Positions 4,188 to 43,247 of a stretch of 63,309 nt of DNA are shown in pieces. The DNA comes from Porticoccaceae bacterium (lineage in GTDB: Bacteria; Pseudomonadota; Gammaproteobacteria; Pseudomonadales; Porticoccaceae): assembly GCA_023228865.1 (NCBI GenBank), contig JALOAH010000012.1:1-63309 (forward strand). Reading direction: 5' to 3'. Each line of letters begins with the position of its first letter. Position 1 is the stretch's first letter. A program made the translations under genes and the position numbers. The notes under the pieces were generated by a model, which was not told the DNA's origin, did not search any database, and saw nothing but the letters and a program-made list of their open reading frames with translations.

Positions 4188-6602
4188 ATGAACATCACAA
4201 AAACTAAAATGTCTATAGCTGTGAGCATAGGCGCATGTTTATTATGTTCCAATCAAGTCTTCGCAGCCATGGCCCTGGAAGAAATCATTGTTACAGCCAA
4301 CAAGCGCTCAGAAAGTGTAAATGATGTAGGCCTGTCGATTTCTGCCCTGGGCGGCGAAAAACTGGCGGAACAAAAATTGACATCTCTTGAAGAAATATCT
4401 TCTGCGATTCCTGGCCTTGTGTACTCTGCCAGCACTGCCAATACCCCTATTTTCACGCTTCGCGGCATTGGCTTTAACGAACAGACTCTGGGTGCATACC
4501 CGGCCACCAGCCTGTACCTTGACGAAGCACCTATGCCGTTTCCCGTACTTGCCAGCCATACTTCCTATGACCTTGAGCGAGTTGAGGTTCTGAAAGGACC
4601 ACAGGGCATTCTTTTTGGTCAAAACTCCACCGGAGGCGCTATTAACTTTATTGCTGCCAAACCTACAGATGAGTTCGAAGCAGGTGGTGATCTGAGTTAT
4701 GGACGCTTTGATAAAATGGAATTTAATGGCTTTGTGAGCGGACCGCTATCTGACACCGTCGCCGCAAGACTAGCTGTCACTGGCGTCAATGCCGACGAAT
4801 GGCAAAAAAGTTCAAGTCGAGATGATGAAAATGGCGCTGAAGAATATTTTGCAGCACGTCTGACATTAACATTTGAGCCAACCGACACCTCCCGTTATTT
4901 AGTCAATATTAACGGCTGGAATGACCAGTCCGACCCTCAAGCCCAGCAATTGGCCGCCATTAACCCGCAAATTTCCGGAGAAGCCGCTGGCGCCAACTTG
5001 GAAACCGTATTGGCGCAAACTCTGACCCAAGAAGATACCCGTGCTGCAGACTGGTCTCCTGATATCAACCCATCTGGCGATCGTGACTTTTACCAGTTTA
5101 TTGCTCGAGGAGATTGGGATCTGGCAGATACTATGACATTGACTGCTCTGACAACCTATCAAGACTTCGAACAAAATCAGCGTACTGATGGCGATGGCAC
5201 CTCTTTGGTACTATTCGATCTCTCTCCGATTCAGGGAGAAATCGACACTTGGATCACAGAAATTCGTTTAGCAGGCAATACCGATGCTATGAAATGGGTG
5301 ATGGGCGCCAATTACGAGGACAGCAACACCTACGAGAGCGAAATCCTTAACTACAGAGACTCTACCAACACAAACCCTGCCAATCTTTTCATCAATACTT
5401 CAGGCATTGCTCTGGAACAAGAAATTTCCAACTATGCGATTTTTGGCAACGTGGATTATGATCTGACAGAAAACCTTACAGTAAAGCTGGGAGCTCGCTA
5501 TACGGATTCAAGCATTGATGTAAATAGCTGTAATTTTGCGCCCGCCAATGATCCATTAGCGGTAGATGCTGGGCAGGGAGCTAACGTTGCAACGCTATTT
5601 AATGTTTTGGGGGACTTGCTTAATGGTGGCGATGGCGATTTTTCGAATGGCCTCGCCGTTCCATTTGACATCATAGGGATGAATGATTGTTATACGCTTA
5701 ATGATAGCGCCATTCCCGGTGATGCCTATGTTCAGAGCCTGGAAGAAAACAATACCTCTTGGCGAGCAGGCCTAGACTATGCGCTAAATGAAAATACACT
5801 GGTTTACGGAAATATTTCAAAGGGTTATAAATCAGGTAGCTTTCCTGCCCTTGCTGCGGCTAACTTCTTCCAGCTCGATCCCGTTACCCAGGAATCAGTA
5901 TTATCCTACGAGGTGGGCTTTAAATCATCATTGCTCGACAGCAGGGTGCAACTTAATGCTGCTGCTTTCTACTATGAGTATGAAGACAAGCAGCTGAGAA
6001 CCAAAACTCTGGACGACATTTTTGGCCTTTTAGATGTTTTGGACAACGTCCCTGAAAGTGAAATCTTTGGTTTCGAAGCAGATATTACCGCTCAAATTAC
6101 AGAAGGACTACGCTTGAGCGGCGCTATCACCTATTTGGAATCAGAAGTCAAAGACTACAGCAATGGTATTGGCTTTAACGGCGAAACCAATGTAGATTTT
6201 AGCGGTGAGCCCATCCCGTTCACTCCAGAGTGGACTTATAGCCTGGATGCTGATTACAGGGTTTTCTTGGCTTCAGGTGGCGAGGTTTTTATGGGTGTTA
6301 ATGTCACAGGCCAGTCTGAGTCGGAAGCCGCTTTTGGCGCGAGCATGCTGACGCTGACACCAGAGCAATTTACCGCCGGAGCCCAAGTCATCAAATCTGA
6401 CTATAACGTGATGGACTCTTATGCGGTATGGGGCGCTCGGCTGGGTTACGAAGACAAGGACGGGCGCTGGAAAGTCATGCTTTGGGGCAAAAACCTGGCT
6501 GACGAATATTACGTCACCAACCTGATTGCTTCTTCCGATACCACAGCACGCTTTGTTGGTCGTCCCCGCACCTACGGCATCACAGTTGGATACACCTACT
6601 AG
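4188..6602 (+). CDS. TonB-dependent outer-membrane receptor (copy 1)
   Basis: This 804-residue TonB-dependent receptor should import a substrate across the outer membrane using TonB-ExbBD energy. It has a signal peptide (about residues 1-26, ending VFA) and then the TonB-box-like LEEIIVTANKR. The plug domain contains the hallmark VEVLKGPQGILFGQNST and the segment TSLYLDEAPMPFP. The beta-barrel runs to a terminal aromatic, GITVGYTY. AAAGGA sits 8 to 10 bases before the ATG. It is closely related to the receptors at 8029 and 30235, sharing the LDEAP loop, the WKVMLWGKNL segment and the RPRTYG end. It belongs to the general family typical of sphingomonads and Cellvibrionales. The ligand is unknown; nearby enzymes suggest a hydrophobic terpenoid- or steroid-like compound. 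Confidence 0.93.
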   Translation: MNITKTKMSIAVSIGACLLCSNQVFAAMALEEIIVTANKRSESVNDVGLSISALGGEKLAEQKLTSLEEISSAIPGLVYSASTANTPIFTLRGIGFNEQTLGAYPATSLYLDEAPMPFPVLASHTSYDLERVEVLKGPQGILFGQNSTGGAINFIAAKPTDEFEAGGDLSYGRFDKMEFNGFVSGPLSDTVAARLAVTGVNADEWQKSSSRDDENGAEEYFAARLTLTFEPTDTSRYLVNINGWNDQSDPQAQQLAAINPQISGEAAGANLETVLAQTLTQEDTRAADWSPDINPSGDRDFYQFIARGDWDLADTMTLTALTTYQDFEQNQRTDGDGTSLVLFDLSPIQGEIDTWITEIRLAGNTDAMKWVMGANYEDSNTYESEILNYRDSTNTNPANLFINTSGIALEQEISNYAIFGNVDYDLTENLTVKLGARYTDSSIDVNSCNFAPANDPLAVDAGQGANVATLFNVLGDLLNGGDGDFSNGLAVPFDIIGMNDCYTLNDSAIPGDAYVQSLEENNTSWRAGLDYALNENTLVYGNISKGYKSGSFPALAAANFFQLDPVTQESVLSYEVGFKSSLLDSRVQLNAAAFYYEYEDKQLRTKTLDDIFGLLDVLDNVPESEIFGFEADITAQITEGLRLSGAITYLESEVKDYSNGIGFNGETNVDFSGEPIPFTPEWTYSLDADYRVFLASGGEVFMGVNVTGQSESEAAFGASMLTLTPEQFTAGAQVIKSDYNVMDSYAVWGARLGYEDKDGRWKVMLWGKNLADEYYVTNLIASSDTTARFVGRPRTYGITVGYTY

Positions 6603-8028: not shown

Positions 8029-10413
8029 CTAGTAAGTATAACCTACAGTAACGCCATAGGTTACCGGACGACCAGCAAATCTGGCAATAGTGTCAGATGA
8101 GGGTATGACCGAAGTCCAGTAGTATTCATTGAGGACGTTTTTGCCCCAAAGCATGACTTTCCAGGCTTGATCAGGAGACTCCCACCCCATTCTCAAATCG
8201 AGAATTTTGTAGCTGTCGATAAGGTAGGGATACTGCTGTGCAGTCCTGTTGACCCCTTCATTGTTAAAGGAAAGACGGTCACCACCAATAGCCGCATCCA
8301 CATCATCCTGGCCGCGCAGATTGCCGCCAAAGAAGATCTCGGCGCCAGTGCTCAAGGGGATGCGATAGTCCGCCCCCACTGTATAGCTGAGCTCGGGGGT
8401 GAACGGCAGACGATCGCCGCTGAAATCCTGATTCAGGTTGCCGAGAATATCGGTGCCAGCGTATTCGGTAATTTCAGAATCCAGCCAGGTTGCCGTCGCT
8501 GTCAGAGTCAAGCGATCTGTTGCCTGCCAGGTAATATCCGCTTCAAGGCCTTTGATTTCAGACTCGGGAACATTGATCAGGGCATCAAGGATACCGAAGA
8601 TCGGGTCAAGAATCTTGCCGCGAACCTGCTTGTCCTTGTAGTCGTAATAGAATGCCGCACCGTTCAACTGCACACTGCCGTCGGCCAAGGTCGCTTTAAA
8701 ACCTGCCTCATAGGAAAGGTTGGATTCCTGGGTCACAGGATAAAGCGCCACTTCCTGTGCTGCCGCCAGTGCTGGATAACTACCGGTTTTATAGCCTTTG
8801 GAGACATTGAGGTAGGTCAGAATATCTTCGTTGAACTGATAGTCGAGACCAACACGCCAGGAAGTGTTATCTTCAGATAACTCATCAACAAACACATTGC
8901 CTGTTTCACCAGCCGCATTAAAGGTATAACACTGCCCAAGAGGGCGGTTATAGTCGATTTGATCAATGGGAACACCTTCGTAAATCAACTGCTCAAGAAA
9001 GCTAAACAATTCGAGAACATTTCCACCCGGATCAGAGTAACCGCAGTTTCTGGCATCAATGGTGGTATCTGTATAACGGGCGCCCGCTCTCAGGGTCAGA
9101 GCATCGGTGGCGCTGTATTCCACATTACCAAAGAAAGCGTAGGATTCAATTTCCTGATCTAAGTCAACAGCACTATGGTTGATCCAAAAGTTGCCGGCGT
9201 TATAGGTGGAGTTGTGGAAATAACGCAGATCCTGACGTTCAAAAGTGTCAGTGCTGTCGTAGTTGGCGCCGACAATCCAGTTAAACTTGTCGACATCACC
9301 TGTCAGACGGACTTCGGTGTTGAAGGATTCGACATCGCCCTCAATGTTCTCCAGGTCGAAGCCAACCCCGGCGGAGCCGTCACCGTCAGTGGCAAGTTGT
9401 TGCGTATAGTCGGTGTAAGTGGTCAACCAGGTAAAGACCATATCCTCATTGAGATCCACATCCAGGCGGACGATACCCTGCATAAACTCCCGATCAGCGT
9501 AGGGCTGGATGCCGTCATATGGGGCAATGCCCTGCTCCGGAATGCGCACATTCGCTGGGGACCAGTCAGCAGCGCGAGCAGTAAAAGGCACCAACGGCGC
9601 ATTTATCTGTTCAGGCTTTACTGTGCTTGGCACGTTCGGCCTTACCGCAGCCAACTGCTGCGCCTGGGGGTCAGACTTATCAGTCCAGCCGTTCAGGTTA
9701 ACATTGACACGGACATCGTCGGTGGGCTGAAAGTCGAACAACAGTCTGCCGGCAAAATATTCCTCTTCACCGTTTTCGTCATCTCTGGTGACACTGTACT
9801 GCCAGTCGTCGGAATTCACCGAAGTGAAGGCAAAGCGGGCAAGGAGCTTGTCGCTTAAAGGCCCGCTGACAAAACCGTTTGCCTCGACCTTGTTAAAGCG
9901 GCCATAGCTAAGATCGGCACCGGCTTCAAAGGTGTCGGTAGGCTTGGCGGCAATAAAGTTAATGGCGCCCGCAGTGGAGTTTTGGCCAAACAGGGTTCCC
10001 TGGGGACCCTTGAGAACTTCCAGCCGCTCCAGATCAAAAGCTGTGTGCATGGCAAGGGTTGGGAACGGCAATGGCGCTTCGTCAATGTACAAGCTTGTGG
10101 ATGGATAGACCCCCAGGGAGCTTTCATTGAAGCCTACACCGCGAAGGGTAAAGATAGGCGTATTGGTGGTACTTGGAGAAAATACCAGCCCTGGAACAGC
10201 GGTGGAAATATCCTCAAGAGAGGTCAATCCTTGATTCTTGATCTGATCCCCAGAAAGCGCCGCAATCGACATACCAACATCGTTGATGCTTTGTGAGCGT
10301 TTTTGTGCGGTTACGATAACCTCTTCAAGCTGGGCAAAGGCGGAGCTGGTGAATAACGCAGCCGAACCCAGGGTTACCAAAGCCGCTAACGGTTTGATTT
10401 TTTTCGTAAACAT
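8029..10413 (-). CDS. TonB-dependent outer-membrane receptor (copy 2)
   Basis: This TonB-dependent receptor, about 794 residues, is a paralogue of the one at 4188. The ATG at 10413 is preferred over one 42 bases upstream because AGGGAGAG lies just before it and a proper signal peptide begins there (MFTKKIKPLAALVTLGSAAL, cleavage near FAQ). TonB box LEEVIVTAQKR, plug motif VEVLKGPQGTLFGQNST and loop TSLYIDEAPLPFP are all present. The C-terminus is GVTVGYTY. Compared with copy 1 it differs mostly in barrel loops, as expected if the copies recognise related but different ligands. It is transcribed toward the LuxR-type regulator, which suggests shared control. Confidence 0.93.
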   Translation of the reverse strand: MFTKKIKPLAALVTLGSAALFTSSAFAQLEEVIVTAQKRSQSINDVGMSIAALSGDQIKNQGLTSLEDISTAVPGLVFSPSTTNTPIFTLRGVGFNESSLGVYPSTSLYIDEAPLPFPTLAMHTAFDLERLEVLKGPQGTLFGQNSTAGAINFIAAKPTDTFEAGADLSYGRFNKVEANGFVSGPLSDKLLARFAFTSVNSDDWQYSVTRDDENGEEEYFAGRLLFDFQPTDDVRVNVNLNGWTDKSDPQAQQLAAVRPNVPSTVKPEQINAPLVPFTARAADWSPANVRIPEQGIAPYDGIQPYADREFMQGIVRLDVDLNEDMVFTWLTTYTDYTQQLATDGDGSAGVGFDLENIEGDVESFNTEVRLTGDVDKFNWIVGANYDSTDTFERQDLRYFHNSTYNAGNFWINHSAVDLDQEIESYAFFGNVEYSATDALTLRAGARYTDTTIDARNCGYSDPGGNVLELFSFLEQLIYEGVPIDQIDYNRPLGQCYTFNAAGETGNVFVDELSEDNTSWRVGLDYQFNEDILTYLNVSKGYKTGSYPALAAAQEVALYPVTQESNLSYEAGFKATLADGSVQLNGAAFYYDYKDKQVRGKILDPIFGILDALINVPESEIKGLEADITWQATDRLTLTATATWLDSEITEYAGTDILGNLNQDFSGDRLPFTPELSYTVGADYRIPLSTGAEIFFGGNLRGQDDVDAAIGGDRLSFNNEGVNRTAQQYPYLIDSYKILDLRMGWESPDQAWKVMLWGKNVLNEYYWTSVIPSSDTIARFAGRPVTYGVTVGYTY

Positions 10414-11093
10414 AGAGGTACTCTCCCTTATTCTATCGTGTTGAAATTTATGCATTTTTAATAGTTAAGTATTTCGAGCCAAGCAACCATTCGAGGCAAT
10501 CTGGAACACAGAACAGCTTATATGCCTCTCTGATTTCTGAACAATTATCGTAATTAATATACACGCCATTAGAGACGCTGATAAAAGCATAGCACAATCA
10601 ATACTTATATTTCTATTTTTATTCGGATAAATAAAAAAATATGCTCACTGCGGACACCGGCAGGTCTGCGCCCAGACAAACATTGCCAAAAACACCACAG
10701 CCAAAAAATATTAACAATTAAAATCATATGGTTAAAAAATATTACTAGATTATATAGAGAAAGTAAGCACTATCTTCCTTACCAAAGCGATAGCAACAAC
10801 GGCTAAAAAACCGCTACCCAGGGATGCCCTCAGTGGGGTCAAAGTCGAATTATTATTAATAATGGCGGAGGCATAACAGCCAGACCATGGATCTGAGCAT
10901 ACGAATTATGGCCGAATTTTCAGCGGAAATATAAAACGAAAACCAATCGCACGAAGAAATTCCCCCCGAGCCACGGGGCGGCACATACTGATGCCAGACT
11001 TGGCAATGACGAAAGAACAGAGATCTCAGGAGCAACGGCAGACTTGAAATCAAACAGCTGCCCCGAAGCGCGCGGAAGACAGAGTCAAAAAAA

Positions 11094-30234: not shown

Positions 30235-32595
30235 CTAAAACTGATAGCTAAAGGTGGCGCCATAGGTGCGGGGCAAGCCGGCAGACCGGGAAATATTGTC
30301 CTCAGCAACGTTAACGTTATTCCAGTAATAATCATCTTTGAGGTTTTTCGCCCACAAAAACAATGTCCAACTACCATCCAGGGCACTGACGCCCGCCCTG
30401 GCGTTGATCAGATCATAGCTGTCAATGACGAAAGGTTTTTCAAAGCCGGGATGAGCGCGGTTTTGCGGAAACCCATCAGGTGTTGCAATGGGGGCAAAGT
30501 TATAACCATCAATGGCCGCTGTTTTTGAGTCGTCATACATATAAGTAATGCCGACAAAGGGGCTGAAATGGCGTGTATCCCAGGTATATTCAACATCCAC
30601 CTTGTGGGACCACTCGGCGGTGAACGGCAGCTCGGCGCCGGTGAAGTCCCAGGGCTGACCGACATCATTAAATTGATTTTCCCCTCCTTCGGTAATCTCG
30701 GTATCCAGGTAAACCGTTGATAGCGACACCACCAGGCCATCAACCGGGGATACTGTCAACTCAACCTCTGCACCCTTAACCTCAGATTCAGGAATATTGC
30801 GCAACTGGGGAAGCACCTCAAACACAGGGTCGAGAATACTGCCGCGTACCTGCTTGTCGTCATATTTGTAGAAAAACGCGGCAGCGTTCAGATTGACACG
30901 GCCATCCATATATTGACCCTTGGTGCCCACTTCATAAGCCAGCACAGACTCCTGGGTCACCGGTTCCAGACCTACCCATCCAGCAGGGGAAGAGGTGGGG
31001 AAACTACCCTGTTTATAACCTTCGGAAATATTGGCATAGAGCAGCACGTTGTCAGTGAGGTTATAGTCCAAACCTACACGCCAGGAAACGTTATCTTCAG
31101 AGAGGGTGTTGTTGTACACATCGCCGGGGACACCCTGGAAATTCAGCGGGAAGCACTGGCCAGGGCCTACGCCGATGGGATCAAAAGGCACAGTGCCCAG
31201 CAAACCACCGAGGAAATTAAAGAGTCCGGCAATGGCGCCATCGCCCTCATCCGTATTACAGGATCTGAACTTGTATTCCGAGTCTGTATAACGGGCACCC
31301 ACTTTCAGATTCAGGGACTCGGTTAGGCGGTAATCCAGGTTGCCAAAAATCGCCCAGTTTTCCATTTCGGAATCAAGCTCAATGGTGTTTTGAAAGATAC
31401 CAGTGTTTATAGCAACGGAGTTATTCACATAGGACTGTAACTGGCGCTCAGCAACTTCGCTATTTTCGTAGTTGAAACCCAATACCCAGCGGTAGACGTC
31501 CACATCGGTGTTTTCAATTCTGAATTCCTGAGAATAGGTTTCAATGGTCGCATCCATACGGGTCTGATCCTGGTTTTGAATGGCAGAACCATCGCGATCA
31601 GTGGCTTGCGCCTGATCAAAGTCGATATAAGACGACAAAGAAGTGAATAACAGATTGTCAGCGAAATTGTGCTCCAGGCGAAGCACTGTTTGGAAAAGCT
31701 CGCGATCAGAATAGGGGGTCACAGAACCCCAATCCGCGGCGCGATTTTCTTCAGGCACCAATGGCTGGTTGACAATGGGCAGGCCGTTGGGGGTACCCAG
31801 CGCCGTAGGCGCACTGTATTTGGTTGCCGCCAACTGCATGGCTTGGGGATCAGACTCATCCTTCCAGGTATTTAGCGTTAAGGATACGCTGGTATCGTCG
31901 GTTGGATCCCAGTCAAGCATGGCGCGACCGGTGTAATACACTTCTTCGCCATGTTTATCACCGCGAGTAACGGAGTACTGCCAGTCGTCCATGTTATGGG
32001 TTTTAACCGCAACCCGGGCTTTGAGGGTATCTGTTAAAGGCCCGCTGATATAGCCCTCGACTTCAACAAGGTCAAAACGGCCATAGGTGGTGGTAACTCC
32101 CGCTTCAAGTTCATCGGTGGGTTTTTTGGCAATATAGTTGATAGCGCCGCCAGTGGAGTTTTGACCAAACAGCGTACCCTGGGGTCCTTTGAGCACTTCG
32201 ATGCGCTCAAGATCAAAGGCCGCATTGGCTGCCAGAGTGGGAAATGTCAGAGGCGCTTCATCGAGATACACGCTCACCGCCGGATAGACACCGAGACTGG
32301 CTTCGTTAAAGCCGATACCGCGCAAAGTATAAATAGGCGTGTTGTAATCTGAGCGAGCATAGCTAAGGCTGGGTATGGCAGTGGCTATATCATCGGCATT
32401 GGAAATCCGTTGTTTGATTAGGTTTTCGGAAGACATCACGCTCATGGTTGCACCCACATCGGCGAAACTCTGCTCGCGCTTGTTGGCTGTGACCATAATT
32501 TCCTGTATCTGAGCATGGGAAACAACTGGCAAAGCCAATGTTGTGACCACGCAGGAAGCCAAGAGTTTTTTGTTCGCTAAAAAACCATTTTTCAT
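30235..32595 (-). CDS. TonB-dependent outer-membrane receptor (copy 3)
   Basis: This TonB-dependent receptor of about 786 residues is the third member of the paralogous set with 4188 and 8029. ATG at 32595 is preferred, because the GAGGG ribosome-binding site overlaps the codons of a further upstream ATG. The signal peptide ends near SHAQ, followed by TonB box IQEIMVTANKR. The plug has VEVLKGPQGTLFGQNST and VSVYLDEAPLTFP, and the barrel ends GATFSYQF. The 590-base AT-rich leader on its 5' side suggests complex regulation. It lies downstream of the PQQ dehydrogenase and upstream of the mycofactocin-type SDR, all on one strand. Confidence 0.93.
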   Translation of the reverse strand: MKNGFLANKKLLASCVVTTLALPVVSHAQIQEIMVTANKREQSFADVGATMSVMSSENLIKQRISNADDIATAIPSLSYARSDYNTPIYTLRGIGFNEASLGVYPAVSVYLDEAPLTFPTLAANAAFDLERIEVLKGPQGTLFGQNSTGGAINYIAKKPTDELEAGVTTTYGRFDLVEVEGYISGPLTDTLKARVAVKTHNMDDWQYSVTRGDKHGEEVYYTGRAMLDWDPTDDTSVSLTLNTWKDESDPQAMQLAATKYSAPTALGTPNGLPIVNQPLVPEENRAADWGSVTPYSDRELFQTVLRLEHNFADNLLFTSLSSYIDFDQAQATDRDGSAIQNQDQTRMDATIETYSQEFRIENTDVDVYRWVLGFNYENSEVAERQLQSYVNNSVAINTGIFQNTIELDSEMENWAIFGNLDYRLTESLNLKVGARYTDSEYKFRSCNTDEGDGAIAGLFNFLGGLLGTVPFDPIGVGPGQCFPLNFQGVPGDVYNNTLSEDNVSWRVGLDYNLTDNVLLYANISEGYKQGSFPTSSPAGWVGLEPVTQESVLAYEVGTKGQYMDGRVNLNAAAFFYKYDDKQVRGSILDPVFEVLPQLRNIPESEVKGAEVELTVSPVDGLVVSLSTVYLDTEITEGGENQFNDVGQPWDFTGAELPFTAEWSHKVDVEYTWDTRHFSPFVGITYMYDDSKTAAIDGYNFAPIATPDGFPQNRAHPGFEKPFVIDSYDLINARAGVSALDGSWTLFLWAKNLKDDYYWNNVNVAEDNISRSAGLPRTYGATFSYQF

Positions 32596-33185
32596 CTTAT
32601 TTACCCTCATTATTTAGGCTGCTTAACTACAGGTACAAGTAGAGGCATTATTGTGAGTTCTATCTGTACACTTTTAACACTGACGCATTGATAAGGCTCA
32701 TGCGATTTACGATTGACGGGAATCCACCCCAATTAGGTGCTGGCATAGAAACAGCCCTTAATAATATTATTTCTGCTTATAGTGTGAATTTTTCACGCCA
32801 GCACATCCCCTTTTCGAGCCGGACAAGCCATTGCGCATTTTTTATCTGTCTATGAGCACCTCCCCAGCATAGTTGATAACATAGCGTTGATCCAGATTAT
32901 TATTCGAACATATGTCATATTCTTAGAAAAAACACAGCATCTTTATAGTTATAAAAAAACAAATAGAGACAACCTGACGCAAGGCAAAATAAATTCTTTA
33001 AATATAGCCATCATCTGCGGAGAAAATGGGGAAAACCCTAGAATACAAACCACCCCCTGAAGTTATTTGTTATTGAACAATACTGAAATTCAATTTAACC
33101 AGGGGGTAGAATAACATTAAAAAAATAAATTTTGCCTATATTAAATTATGTTGATCAAGGCACAAATAACACTTTATTTCGGCTT
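32596..33185. other. Intergenic region before TonB receptor copy 3
   Basis: This AT-rich stretch of about 590 bases should hold the receptor promoter and the 3' end of the PQQ dehydrogenase transcript. No clear gene, terminator or repeat stands out in it. Confidence 0.5.
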
Positions 33186-35965: not shown

Positions 35966-38260
35966 TTAGAACTTATAAGTCACATCAGCACTCCACCAGC
36001 GCGGCGGCCCATAGAAGCCGTAACGCAGGTTGCCAAGCCCCGGAATCAGGAATATCGAGGTGTTGTATTCCTTGTCCGTCAGATTTTTGACACTCGCTGA
36101 AATTTCCCAGCGTTCCGAGCTATCAATGAAATAGGCTCTGGCGTTATAGGTTGTGTAACCCTTAACAATGGAGGCAGGGTTGTCTGCGGGATCGTTGGTA
36201 AAGCTGTCACGGCCGCGGCCATCCACTTGAACGCCAAGGATATGCCCCTCGCCAACATACATTTCATAGTTGATGGCGCCCGCCAGTGTCCATGAAGGAG
36301 CAATGGGCATTTCCCAGTCACCGACAATGCCACTGCCATTGGGCACATCGTACAGGGTGGACTCCAGCAAGCCGCCGTTCAGGGTCAGCGTTAGGCCTTC
36401 GAGTGGCTTCACCGTCAAGTCAAATTCGGCACCGTAGAGTTTGGCATCGCTGTTGGTGAGAAATGAACCTATGCCGATGTAGCTGAGGGTGTGGTAATCA
36501 TTGTAATCATAGTAGAAGGCAGCTGCGTTGAAGTTGGCGCGCTGATCCCAGAATGTGGTTTTCATACCCACTTCATAGGCCAGGAGTTCCTCTTCATCAT
36601 AGAAGTAGGCCTCTTTGGGCAGCCCGGCGGAAATAAAGCCATGGTTGTAGCCCGGCGCCTTGGTGCCGCGACTGAACGAGATATATAACAGCATATCGTC
36701 CGTCGGCTTGTAATCCAGACCTATCTTGGCGTTCCAGGAATTTTTATCAAAGCTGTTAAAGCCGGTGTCATTATTGAGCAAGTCTTCCGAGAGCAATGCG
36801 CCCCTGGGGATCTCTGTGCTGTTTTCCCAGCCGAGCCACTGCTGATCGATGGGCGCATCGGGGGTAGCGGATGCATAGGTTGCATAGCGGGAGTCCATTT
36901 CTTTTTCGTCGTAGGATACGCGCACACCTGTGGTCAGGGTGAACTTATCGCTGAGATCAAACTCCGCATTGGCAAAAAGGGCATAGCCTTTCAGGTCTTG
37001 CTCAGCATCGGCATCGAGAAGCAGGCCACCACCACCAAGACCTACAACCAAAGGCGCAATTTGGTTCACATCCTGATATTGCTCAAGATAATAGGCGCCA
37101 AAGGTGTAACGCTGGGTGCCTAAATCCATAAAGGTTCTGAATTCCTGGGAAAACTGATGGCTGGAGTTGTCGTAATGGGTGGCGCAAATCCACACCTGGG
37201 CGCCATCACAGTCTTCAACCAGATCCCGTTCGTATTCGTTATAGCCAGTGACGGAGGTAAAGGTAATATTGTCGGCAATACTCCAGTCAAGCTTGTTAAT
37301 GATGGTCGTCGACTCTGCGCCTTTCAGCTCGCGCAGGCCGCCGTTATCCGACTCGTGGTATTCGTGAACAGGGGCAGTGCCAAAATCTGTCAAAGAGCCG
37401 GGTGGCTGTTTGACTTCCTGAAGACCGGTGACCGGATTGGTAATCGCAGCGTCAGTCCAAATGGCGGTGGAATGACCCTGTGCCTTGCTGTGGCTGATTT
37501 TGATCACATTGTTGATATTATCCGTGGGCTGTACCGCGAGGGATACGCGGAAGGAATGGTTCTCCATCTCACCGCCATCGGGCTGGTTGCCGGTTCTATG
37601 CTTCATCCAGCCATCGTTTTCGCTGAAATAGCCAGCGACCCGGAACTGCATACGATCATTAATGGGCGCATTAAGGAAACCGGAAGTTCGCCTTGTGTCA
37701 TAGGCACCAACGCCCACCTTGATTTCGCCTTCGCCGACATCAGTGGGATCTTTGCTGATAAAGTGCATCACCCCGCCGGTACTGTTGCGGCCAAACAATG
37801 TCCCCTGCGGCCCCCTCAGAACCTCGACCCGCTCCATATCATAGAGTGGAAAAGACCCGGCACCGGTGGTCACCAGATACATCTCGTCCATATAGGTGGC
37901 AATAGGGGCTTCGGTGGCGTCGTTATAGTCGTTCATGGTGACGCCGCGGATTGAGTAGTTGGGATTGGTGCCAGGACCAAAAATCGCCGTGTGCTCGATA
38001 TTGGGAATAAAATTGACGATGTCGTTTGACAGCTGCATACCGAGAGCAGACATCTGGTCGCCGCCCAGCACGGAAACGGAAATACCCAGATCCGCCGTGC
38101 TCTGCTCGCGCTTTTGCGCCGTCACAATCACTTCGTCAATGGTCGATGATACCGTTCTTTTGCGCTCGCCATCCTGGGCAAAAGCACCTGCGGCAACGGT
38201 GGTTGCCAGCAGTGCCATGGCTCCCCTGGAGCAGGCTATGGATAGTGTTTTAAGTTTCAT
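35966..38260 (-). CDS. TonB-dependent outer-membrane receptor (copy 4, divergent)
   Basis: This 764-residue TonB-dependent receptor has a signal peptide ending near AFAQ, TonB box IDEVIVTAQKR and the plug motif VEVLRGPQGTLFGRNST. Its plug loop (ATYMDEMYLVTTG) and barrel differ clearly from the other three receptors, so it is a more distant family member with another ligand. GGAGATC precedes the ATG. It ends with the aromatic terminus WWSADVTYKF. It follows an SDR gene on the same strand, separated by a hairpin. Confidence 0.92.
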   Translation of the reverse strand: MKLKTLSIACSRGAMALLATTVAAGAFAQDGERKRTVSSTIDEVIVTAQKREQSTADLGISVSVLGGDQMSALGMQLSNDIVNFIPNIEHTAIFGPGTNPNYSIRGVTMNDYNDATEAPIATYMDEMYLVTTGAGSFPLYDMERVEVLRGPQGTLFGRNSTGGVMHFISKDPTDVGEGEIKVGVGAYDTRRTSGFLNAPINDRMQFRVAGYFSENDGWMKHRTGNQPDGGEMENHSFRVSLAVQPTDNINNVIKISHSKAQGHSTAIWTDAAITNPVTGLQEVKQPPGSLTDFGTAPVHEYHESDNGGLRELKGAESTTIINKLDWSIADNITFTSVTGYNEYERDLVEDCDGAQVWICATHYDNSSHQFSQEFRTFMDLGTQRYTFGAYYLEQYQDVNQIAPLVVGLGGGGLLLDADAEQDLKGYALFANAEFDLSDKFTLTTGVRVSYDEKEMDSRYATYASATPDAPIDQQWLGWENSTEIPRGALLSEDLLNNDTGFNSFDKNSWNAKIGLDYKPTDDMLLYISFSRGTKAPGYNHGFISAGLPKEAYFYDEEELLAYEVGMKTTFWDQRANFNAAAFYYDYNDYHTLSYIGIGSFLTNSDAKLYGAEFDLTVKPLEGLTLTLNGGLLESTLYDVPNGSGIVGDWEMPIAPSWTLAGAINYEMYVGEGHILGVQVDGRGRDSFTNDPADNPASIVKGYTTYNARAYFIDSSERWEISASVKNLTDKEYNTSIFLIPGLGNLRYGFYGPPRWWSADVTYKF

Positions 38261-41506: not shown

Positions 41507-41999
41507 TATTTATTGCCCACGCCTCCGGGGCGCATTAAGCCCACATCGAAACTTGCCGGGTTGATAAAAATCACTTAACCGGAAAATTGCGCCTGCTGCC
41601 TGCATTTCCCCGTTTGACAGGCGTCCCGGTCGACCATTCCCTTGTCCCGAGTCACATCAGGCTACAGGAATTCACAGCAATTCATAGTACATGAGGGAAC
41701 TCAAATTTTGTGATAGGAGTTTTGCCTAATGGCCATAACAAACCCGTATGAAAATCATCTCAGAGTTACCAATTGACACATTTCCACAGAGAAGTGTTTC
41801 GAAAAAATCCAGGTTTTCATCAAAATTGTCCTTTTATCCCTGTGAAGCCCCCTTTTGTCGCACAACCCTTTAATTCCAGAGCTTGCCGACCTCGACAACT
41901 TGATGTTGATGCTGAATAGGGTAAAAATACCGCGGCATGGATTAATGCCCCGTCTGTTATTAAGGGCATCGTAAAATTAAAAATATAGGGGGATACACC
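41507..41999. other. Divergent intergenic region
   Basis: This region of about 490 bases lies between the minus-strand hydrolase and the plus-strand TonB-like gene. I found no gene, repeat or clear palindrome. It carries two divergent promoters that I could not delimit. Confidence 0.5.
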
Positions 42000-43193
42000 T
42001 TGAACGCCAGGAAGCTTGCCATATTGGCAATTCTGCCATTACTCGTGCTCGTGGGATTAAAAGCCCAGGCGCTGGAACCCAATGGAACCGCTATCTACAG
42101 CGAACTGGGTAACCAGCTCTACCTGGGTACGCTCTATCTCGATACACCTTCAAAATCGGCAAACGAAATTCTCGGCAGCAGCCAGCGCAAACGCATGGAA
42201 CTGCGCTTTGCCAACGCCATGTCAAAGCGACGCTGGAGCCAGACCTGGACGCAAAGTATTGCCATCAACAGCAGCCAGGAGAACATGATCAGCGCCGCCG
42301 CCGATCTCTCCGAAACCCTGAGTTCGTTCCAGTCGAACCTGGAGTCCGGCGACACCGTCATATTTGACTATGATCCCTTGTCCGGAACCTCTGTTTCCGC
42401 CAACGGCGTGACTCTTGTCAAAGACAAATCGGCGGCCTTGTTCAACCTTCTGCTCTCCGCCTGGATAGGGCCTGTGCCACCCACCAGTCAGTTTAAAAAT
42501 GCCATTCTCGGCACCGCCGATTCAAAAAATGACTACTCGGCGTTTCTCGCCCTCAGCCCATCCCAAGAGCGTATCGACACGGTGAAAAGCTGGTCGACCA
42601 AGCTGAAGGAAGCTGAAGAGCGCGCCCTCGCTGAAGCCCAGGCGGAAGAAGAGGCCATTCGCAAGGCAGAAGAAGAGGCTCAGAAAAAGGCAGAAACTGA
42701 AGCCCTTGAGGAAAAACAGCGCCTCGAACTCATTGCCGAAGAAAAGCGCAAAGCTCAGGAAGCCGCTCGCAAAGCCGCCGAAGAAACTGAGGCAAAACGC
42801 AAAGAAGCGGAGCGTCAGGCTCTGGCTGCACAACAAGGCCAGGGCGGCCAACAACCACCGCAGGAGGATGAAGGTGAAGACGACCTGTCAGCGGAAGGCA
42901 TTCTTGCCCAGCAAAACTACACATCCCAGCTGATTGGCTTGATTTACAAGGCAGTGAAATATCCGGGCACCGCCGTCAAGCGCAACCAGGAAGGCAGCGT
43001 GCGGGCAAACATTACCATTGACCGCGCCGGCAAAGTCGTCAATATTGATCTCGTGGAAGAAGCCCAGTTTGAGGTTCTTAACAAAGCGGTAATCTCCGCG
43101 ATCAATAATGCGGCGCCCTTCCCGTCCCTGCCCAACAACATCAGGGGCAATACCATGAGCATCACTGTCCCGGTCGCTTTTAAACTAAACTGA
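42000..43193 (+). CDS. Chalcone-isomerase-like domain fused to TolA/TonB C-terminus
   Basis: This 397-residue secreted protein has an unusual layout. It starts at TTG 42000 with AGGGGG nine bases upstream. A signal peptide (1-25, cleaved after QA) comes first. Residues 27-165 resemble the bacterial chalcone-isomerase-like fold, with GDTVIFDYDPLSG, VSANGVTL and LLLSAWIGPVPPTSQFKNAI. A long charged Ala/Glu/Lys coiled coil follows (about 195-283, TolA-like). The C-terminal TonB/TolA domain (about 300-397) contains YPGTAVKRNQEGSVRANITI. No membrane anchor other than the cleavable signal is seen, so it is probably periplasmic and not a classical TonB. Its role is unknown. Confidence 0.78.
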   Translation: MNARKLAILAILPLLVLVGLKAQALEPNGTAIYSELGNQLYLGTLYLDTPSKSANEILGSSQRKRMELRFANAMSKRRWSQTWTQSIAINSSQENMISAAADLSETLSSFQSNLESGDTVIFDYDPLSGTSVSANGVTLVKDKSAALFNLLLSAWIGPVPPTSQFKNAILGTADSKNDYSAFLALSPSQERIDTVKSWSTKLKEAEERALAEAQAEEEAIRKAEEEAQKKAETEALEEKQRLELIAEEKRKAQEAARKAAEETEAKRKEAERQALAAQQGQGGQQPPQEDEGEDDLSAEGILAQQNYTSQLIGLIYKAVKYPGTAVKRNQEGSVRANITIDRAGKVVNIDLVEEAQFEVLNKAVISAINNAAPFPSLPNNIRGNTMSITVPVAFKLN

Positions 43194-43211: not shown

Positions 43212-43247
43212 AACGGCCACGCAGATATCCCTATCTGCGTGGCCGTT
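43212..43247 (+). terminator. Rho-independent terminator of the TonB-like gene
   Basis: AACGGCCACGCAGATA and TATCTGCGTGGCCGTT form a perfect 16-bp stem with a TCCC loop, followed by TCAGTTT. The hairpin starts 18 bases after the stop codon. Confidence 0.85.

Follow-up and report, generated by a model that had tools for sequence, protein, structure and literature searches.

We examined a 63,309-nucleotide contig of a Porticoccaceae bacterium (GenBank assembly GCA_023228865.1, contig JALOAH010000012.1; the whole stretch, forward strand, is called the window below) and found that one of its genes encodes, in a single frame, a head with the chalcone isomerase (CHI) fold, a spacer and a TonB-type tail. 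This architecture is secure: the protein matches both PF16036 and PF03544 and its relatives carry both domains, which confirms the one-frame fusion noticed in the first-pass annotation. Tentatively, and at somewhat below even confidence, we regard it as one of a conserved, undescribed family of secreted periplasmic proteins and not as a TonB energy transducer. The gene and its parts are laid out as follows.

41987..41993, plus strand: Shine-Dalgarno-like AGGGGGA, 6 nt 5' of the TTG start, read from the sequence
42000..43193, plus strand: fusion gene, 397 codons and a stop, TTG start at a place shared by homologues
42000..42071, plus strand: probable signal peptide, residues 1-24, ending AQA, judged by pattern only
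42072..42560, plus strand: CHI-fold head, residues 25-187 (PF16036 match 20-171), from profile and fold comparison
42078..42098, plus strand: PNGTAIY, residues 27-33, at the place of the LxGxGxR strand, with Tyr33 where stand-alone relatives have arginine
42564..42902, plus strand: spacer, residues 189-301, a Glu/Ala/Lys-rich helix followed by a disordered part
42897..43190, plus strand: TonB-type C-terminal domain, residues 300-397 (PF03544 match 318-396)
43212..43247, no strand assigned (listed on the minus strand): inverted repeat of 16 pairs directly past the stop, a possible terminator

The two terminal domains proposed in the first-pass annotation were borne out. The head scored 76.2 bits against the PF16036 (Chalcone_3) profile, whose curated cut-off is 27, and the CHI fold was recovered by fold comparison; a sequence search of the PDB with the head returned no CHI chain up to an E value of 1. 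At the other end, the tail exceeded the cut-offs of both PF03544 (TonB_C; 51.4 bits against 24.6) and TIGR01352 (tonB_Cterm; 51 against 27.1).

The fusion is not confined to the window. A first search yielded 36 proteins including the window's own, all 36 with both domains, and a profile search yielded 132, with both domains in 120 of 120 among the matches listed, again counting the window's own; because every one of these proteins has both domains, a chance or assembly artefact was rejected. The organisms named among the matches listed were mostly Microbulbifer, plus a metagenome-assembled Porticoccaceae genome, and point to a gammaproteobacterial group of Microbulbifer and Porticoccaceae. 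In a phylum-wide sample of 398 genomes, matches spanning both domains were found only in genomes G187 (two copies) and G123. Sampling of 390 genomes from the order of G187 gave 71 with a match, of which 51 had a single match covering both domains, 2 more had both in two pieces and the remaining 18 showed the head alone, many of them in frames of 380-560 residues. In one family, 27 of 112 genomes were matched. No plasmid record covered 80% of the fusion protein, and a scan of genome contigs gave a single match, to the tail only. The fusion had been called unusual, and here the outcome is divided: it is common within one order (both domains in 53 of the 71 matching genomes), yet as far as we found it bears no more specific name than 'TonB family protein', 'energy transducer TonB', 'periplasmic protein TonB' or a similar source label. 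Among open-licence papers, judged by title and start of abstract, none described a family joining chalcone isomerase-like and TonB C-terminal domains. For sequence comparison we used 74 family rows, after removal of identical rows (39 loci, 35 proteins), and for gene context 52 loci: 40 that come from 38 of the 71 genomes matched in the order, and 12 representing as many of the 18 genomes newly matched in the 112-genome family. In three loci the frame is irregular: L127 has two open reading frames (head and tail), in L128 the interrupted frame leaves the head part alone visible, and in L111 stops fall within the match.

TonB and HasB are held in the inner membrane by an uncleaved N-terminal helix, and their C-terminal domain is that of PF03544 and TIGR01352. 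The fusion differs from them in having a probable signal peptide and a CHI-fold head before the spacer. The CHI domain opens with a strand at residue 26, right after the probable signal peptide, and a crude, lax pattern run without a control finds an AxA-type site in 66 of the 74 family rows. A cleavable signal peptide thus probably replaces the TonB/TolA anchor, as the first-pass annotation had suggested. Should the hydrophobic N-terminal segment instead escape cleavage and act together with ExbB/ExbD, the protein would be a true TonB-type energy transducer. The profile scores of the tail and the name 'energy transducer TonB' borne by relatives would fit this, as would an ExbD-like gene, named by eye, at a distance of 4.6-7.2 kb in 4 of 40 loci. 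Against it stand the AxA-type sites with a globular domain directly after them, the lack of any ExbB or ExbD gene adjoining the window gene, as far as seen by eye, and the presence of other TonB_C proteins in all 20 fusion genomes searched (3-12 matches per genome, fusion counted). By eye, four such proteins of ordinary length from these genomes have a polar linker rich in proline after a hydrophobic segment. We consider an energy transducer improbable.

The head has lost a defining residue of its fold. In a study of the yeast CHI-fold haemoproteins Aim18p and Aim46p (PMC9996372), LxGxGxR is the beta-3 motif with the catalytic arginine; both proteins keep it, and their arginine mutants lose the golden haem colour. 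In the fusions the motif reads LNGxAx(Y/E/F/H), and the arginine position is held by Y in 42, E in 12, F in 10, H in 9 and Arg in none (n = 73, the position being absent from one of the 74 rows). The window's protein has Tyr33 there, and so lacks the catalytic arginine of chalcone isomerases. Stand-alone bacterial PF16036 proteins belong to the same Pfam family, above its cut-off, yet keep the arginine in 22 of 23 proteins read. [LF]NGA[GS][IV]R was found in 16/16 of those from loci of the 398-genome sample, and stand-alone proteins, present in 5 of 20 fusion genomes, have the arginine in 6 of 7 by eye, L154 being the one without it and the position being least surely placed in L131 and L138. 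Profile starts also differ: the fusions begin at PF16036 position 12-35 and the stand-alone proteins at 1, 1, 1, 2, 7, 10 and 24. Meanwhile D118, G157 and P160 are kept in all 74 family rows. Because the arginine is missing in 73/73 fusions, the enzyme reading was rejected; by the pattern of conservation the head appears to be under constraint, but not as an isomerase.

The same replacement bears on ligands. The fusions lack the arginine that Aim18p-type haem binders need for haem colour and, judged from these alignments, the head is probably not an arginine-anchored lipid or haem binder. The proposal that it binds a lipid or hydrophobic ligand in the manner of known CHI-fold proteins is therefore left unsupported, the arginine being replaced in every fusion and kept in nearly every stand-alone protein. 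A related model, with the head as carrier of such a ligand and the tail passing it to or from a TonB receptor or other envelope machine, is unlikely: it is opposed by the missing arginine, by the loss of haem colour in the yeast mutants (PMC9996372) and by the record of the window's own receptors.

Four TonB-receptor-like genes were recognized by eye in the window (4188-6602, 8029-10455, 30235-32610 and 35966-38260), and catabolic-type genes resembling monooxygenases, CoA-transferases and dehydrogenases are abundant between them; the region may thus serve substrate uptake and degradation. The fusion gene itself stands alone. Upstream, on the opposite strand, lie an alpha/beta hydrolase, an alcohol dehydrogenase, a short-chain dehydrogenase and a receptor-like gene, and downstream the inverted repeat is followed by an epoxide hydrolase. 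The scan that yielded this repeat found 5 terminator-like sites against 3.1 +/- 1.8 in shuffled sequences, and a promoter scan found no promoter-like site 5' of the fusion gene and no excess over shuffles. None of the four receptor-like proteins had a match in the 52 relatives' loci at E<=1e-5, nor did 14 other window genes at E<=1e-20. Because of this, and because the nearest receptor gene is on the opposite strand past three other genes, the suggested delivery of a ligand by the island's receptors finds no support.

In contrast to the window, many relatives share recurrent neighbours. Within 6.5 kb and divergent from the fusion gene, the 52 loci contained a protein with a cyclic nucleotide monophosphate (cNMP)-binding domain in 22, the adaptor of a resistance-nodulation-division (RND) efflux system in 26 and an RND pump in 25; at least one of the three was present in 37 loci and none in 15 (domains were checked on 3, 2 and 2 proteins respectively, the other names being given by eye). 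In two genomes scored as having none, a cNMP-binding gene adjoins a second fusion copy. When 39 loci and nine other proteins are placed in a midpoint-rooted tree (no support values), the cNMP-binding neighbour occurs in distant branches, and it adjoins fusions down to 29% identical. A possible relation of this neighbour to Pseudomonas CbpA was considered and dropped. Searching the window by tblastn with 20 cNMP-binding proteins gave weak matches only (best E 0.003), and 6 RND-operon proteins gave nothing at 1e-3; we do not claim the link for the window's organism. A PilZNR/PilZ protein is encoded close to the cNMP-binding gene in L060, L065, L069, L070 and L073 (Pfam-tested in L060), and in the first four of these it is accompanied by a secreted protein, which in L060 has no Pfam match.

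The spacer varies in make-up more freely than in length. It measures 78-149 residues in 73 of 74 proteins and 238 in one (median 114.5), and ranges from Glu/Ala/Lys-rich without proline to 24% proline; length seems to count more than chemistry. Known analogues are the Pro-rich linker of TonB and the helical one of TolA. The fusions differ from TolA both in the Pro-rich spacers of relatives and in the TIGR02794 (TolA) equivalog score, 55.7 bits against a cut-off of 59.45. In L082 and L087 an Ala/Val-rich hydrophobic stretch lies early in the spacer.

One clade (L084, L085, L086, L092 and L093) has two tandem TonB-type domains; a motif marks both in 5/5, and a profile finds both in the L084, L085 and L092 genomes, the second of L085 being weak. 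These fusions are 523-540 residues long and adjoin, 3' or 5', genes for a porin-like protein (with PF13609 in L085) and for a secreted protein of about 150 residues without a Pfam match. TonB-type domains are known to dimerise and to contact peptidoglycan, and the tail might accordingly serve self-association or peptidoglycan holding, making the protein a structural scaffold. The tandem domains would fit the avidity expected of such a scaffold, which however leaves the recurrent pump and cNMP-binding neighbours unexplained; we hold it to be distinctly unlikely.

We incline, short of an even chance, to a different role: that of a TonB-like adaptor in the periplasm, neither anchored nor energised, whose spacer is conserved in length. 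The anatomy, the arginine loss, the steady spacer length and the gene neighbourhood of relatives described above underlie this reading. Cleavage of the signal peptide would leave the protein free in the periplasm, where the tail may dock, perhaps by edge-strand pairing, on some envelope protein such as an outer-membrane barrel; engagement of an outer-membrane receptor or of Tol-Pal is possible. The head would bind a protein or some ligand as a module without enzymatic activity, the spacer of about 115 residues would set the reach between head and tail, and the whole would act as an unenergised envelope bridge. The divergent RND efflux pump and cNMP-binding protein of many relatives may be served by it or share its regulation. 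A bolder form appears rather unlikely: a TonB-like class working with neither anchor nor proton motive force, the tail holding an outer-membrane barrel and the arginine-less head a periplasmic or inner-membrane machine, which in many species would be the RND pump encoded in the divergent operon, and the cNMP-binding protein serving as switch.

Several observations weigh against the adaptor. The AxA pattern, crude as it is, is failed by 8 of 74 rows, and the stretch in the L082 spacer could, by its hydrophobicity, be a membrane segment. Nor can the 52 loci be counted as independent observations; the fusions of L080 and L081, for one, are identical. Because 15 loci, as well as the window and L117, its closest relative in the genome set, are without either neighbour, the pump link may be local synteny. 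Among 19 genomes searched, three (G605, G425 and G559) encode a clear cNMP-binding homologue at a site apart from any fusion gene, 5 had no match at E<=1e-5 and 4 had weak ones only. Head and tail may also do something other than bridging.

The label TonB implies energised uptake, and the anatomy of the fusions argues otherwise; on the bolder form, many entries now called 'TonB family protein' or 'energy transducer TonB' would be mis-named. If the adaptor reading is right, evolution has turned a TonB-type domain to passive docking and a CHI fold, stripped of its defining arginine, to binding. In Microbulbifer and relatives, the divergent cNMP-binding and RND genes provide a direct genetic handle.
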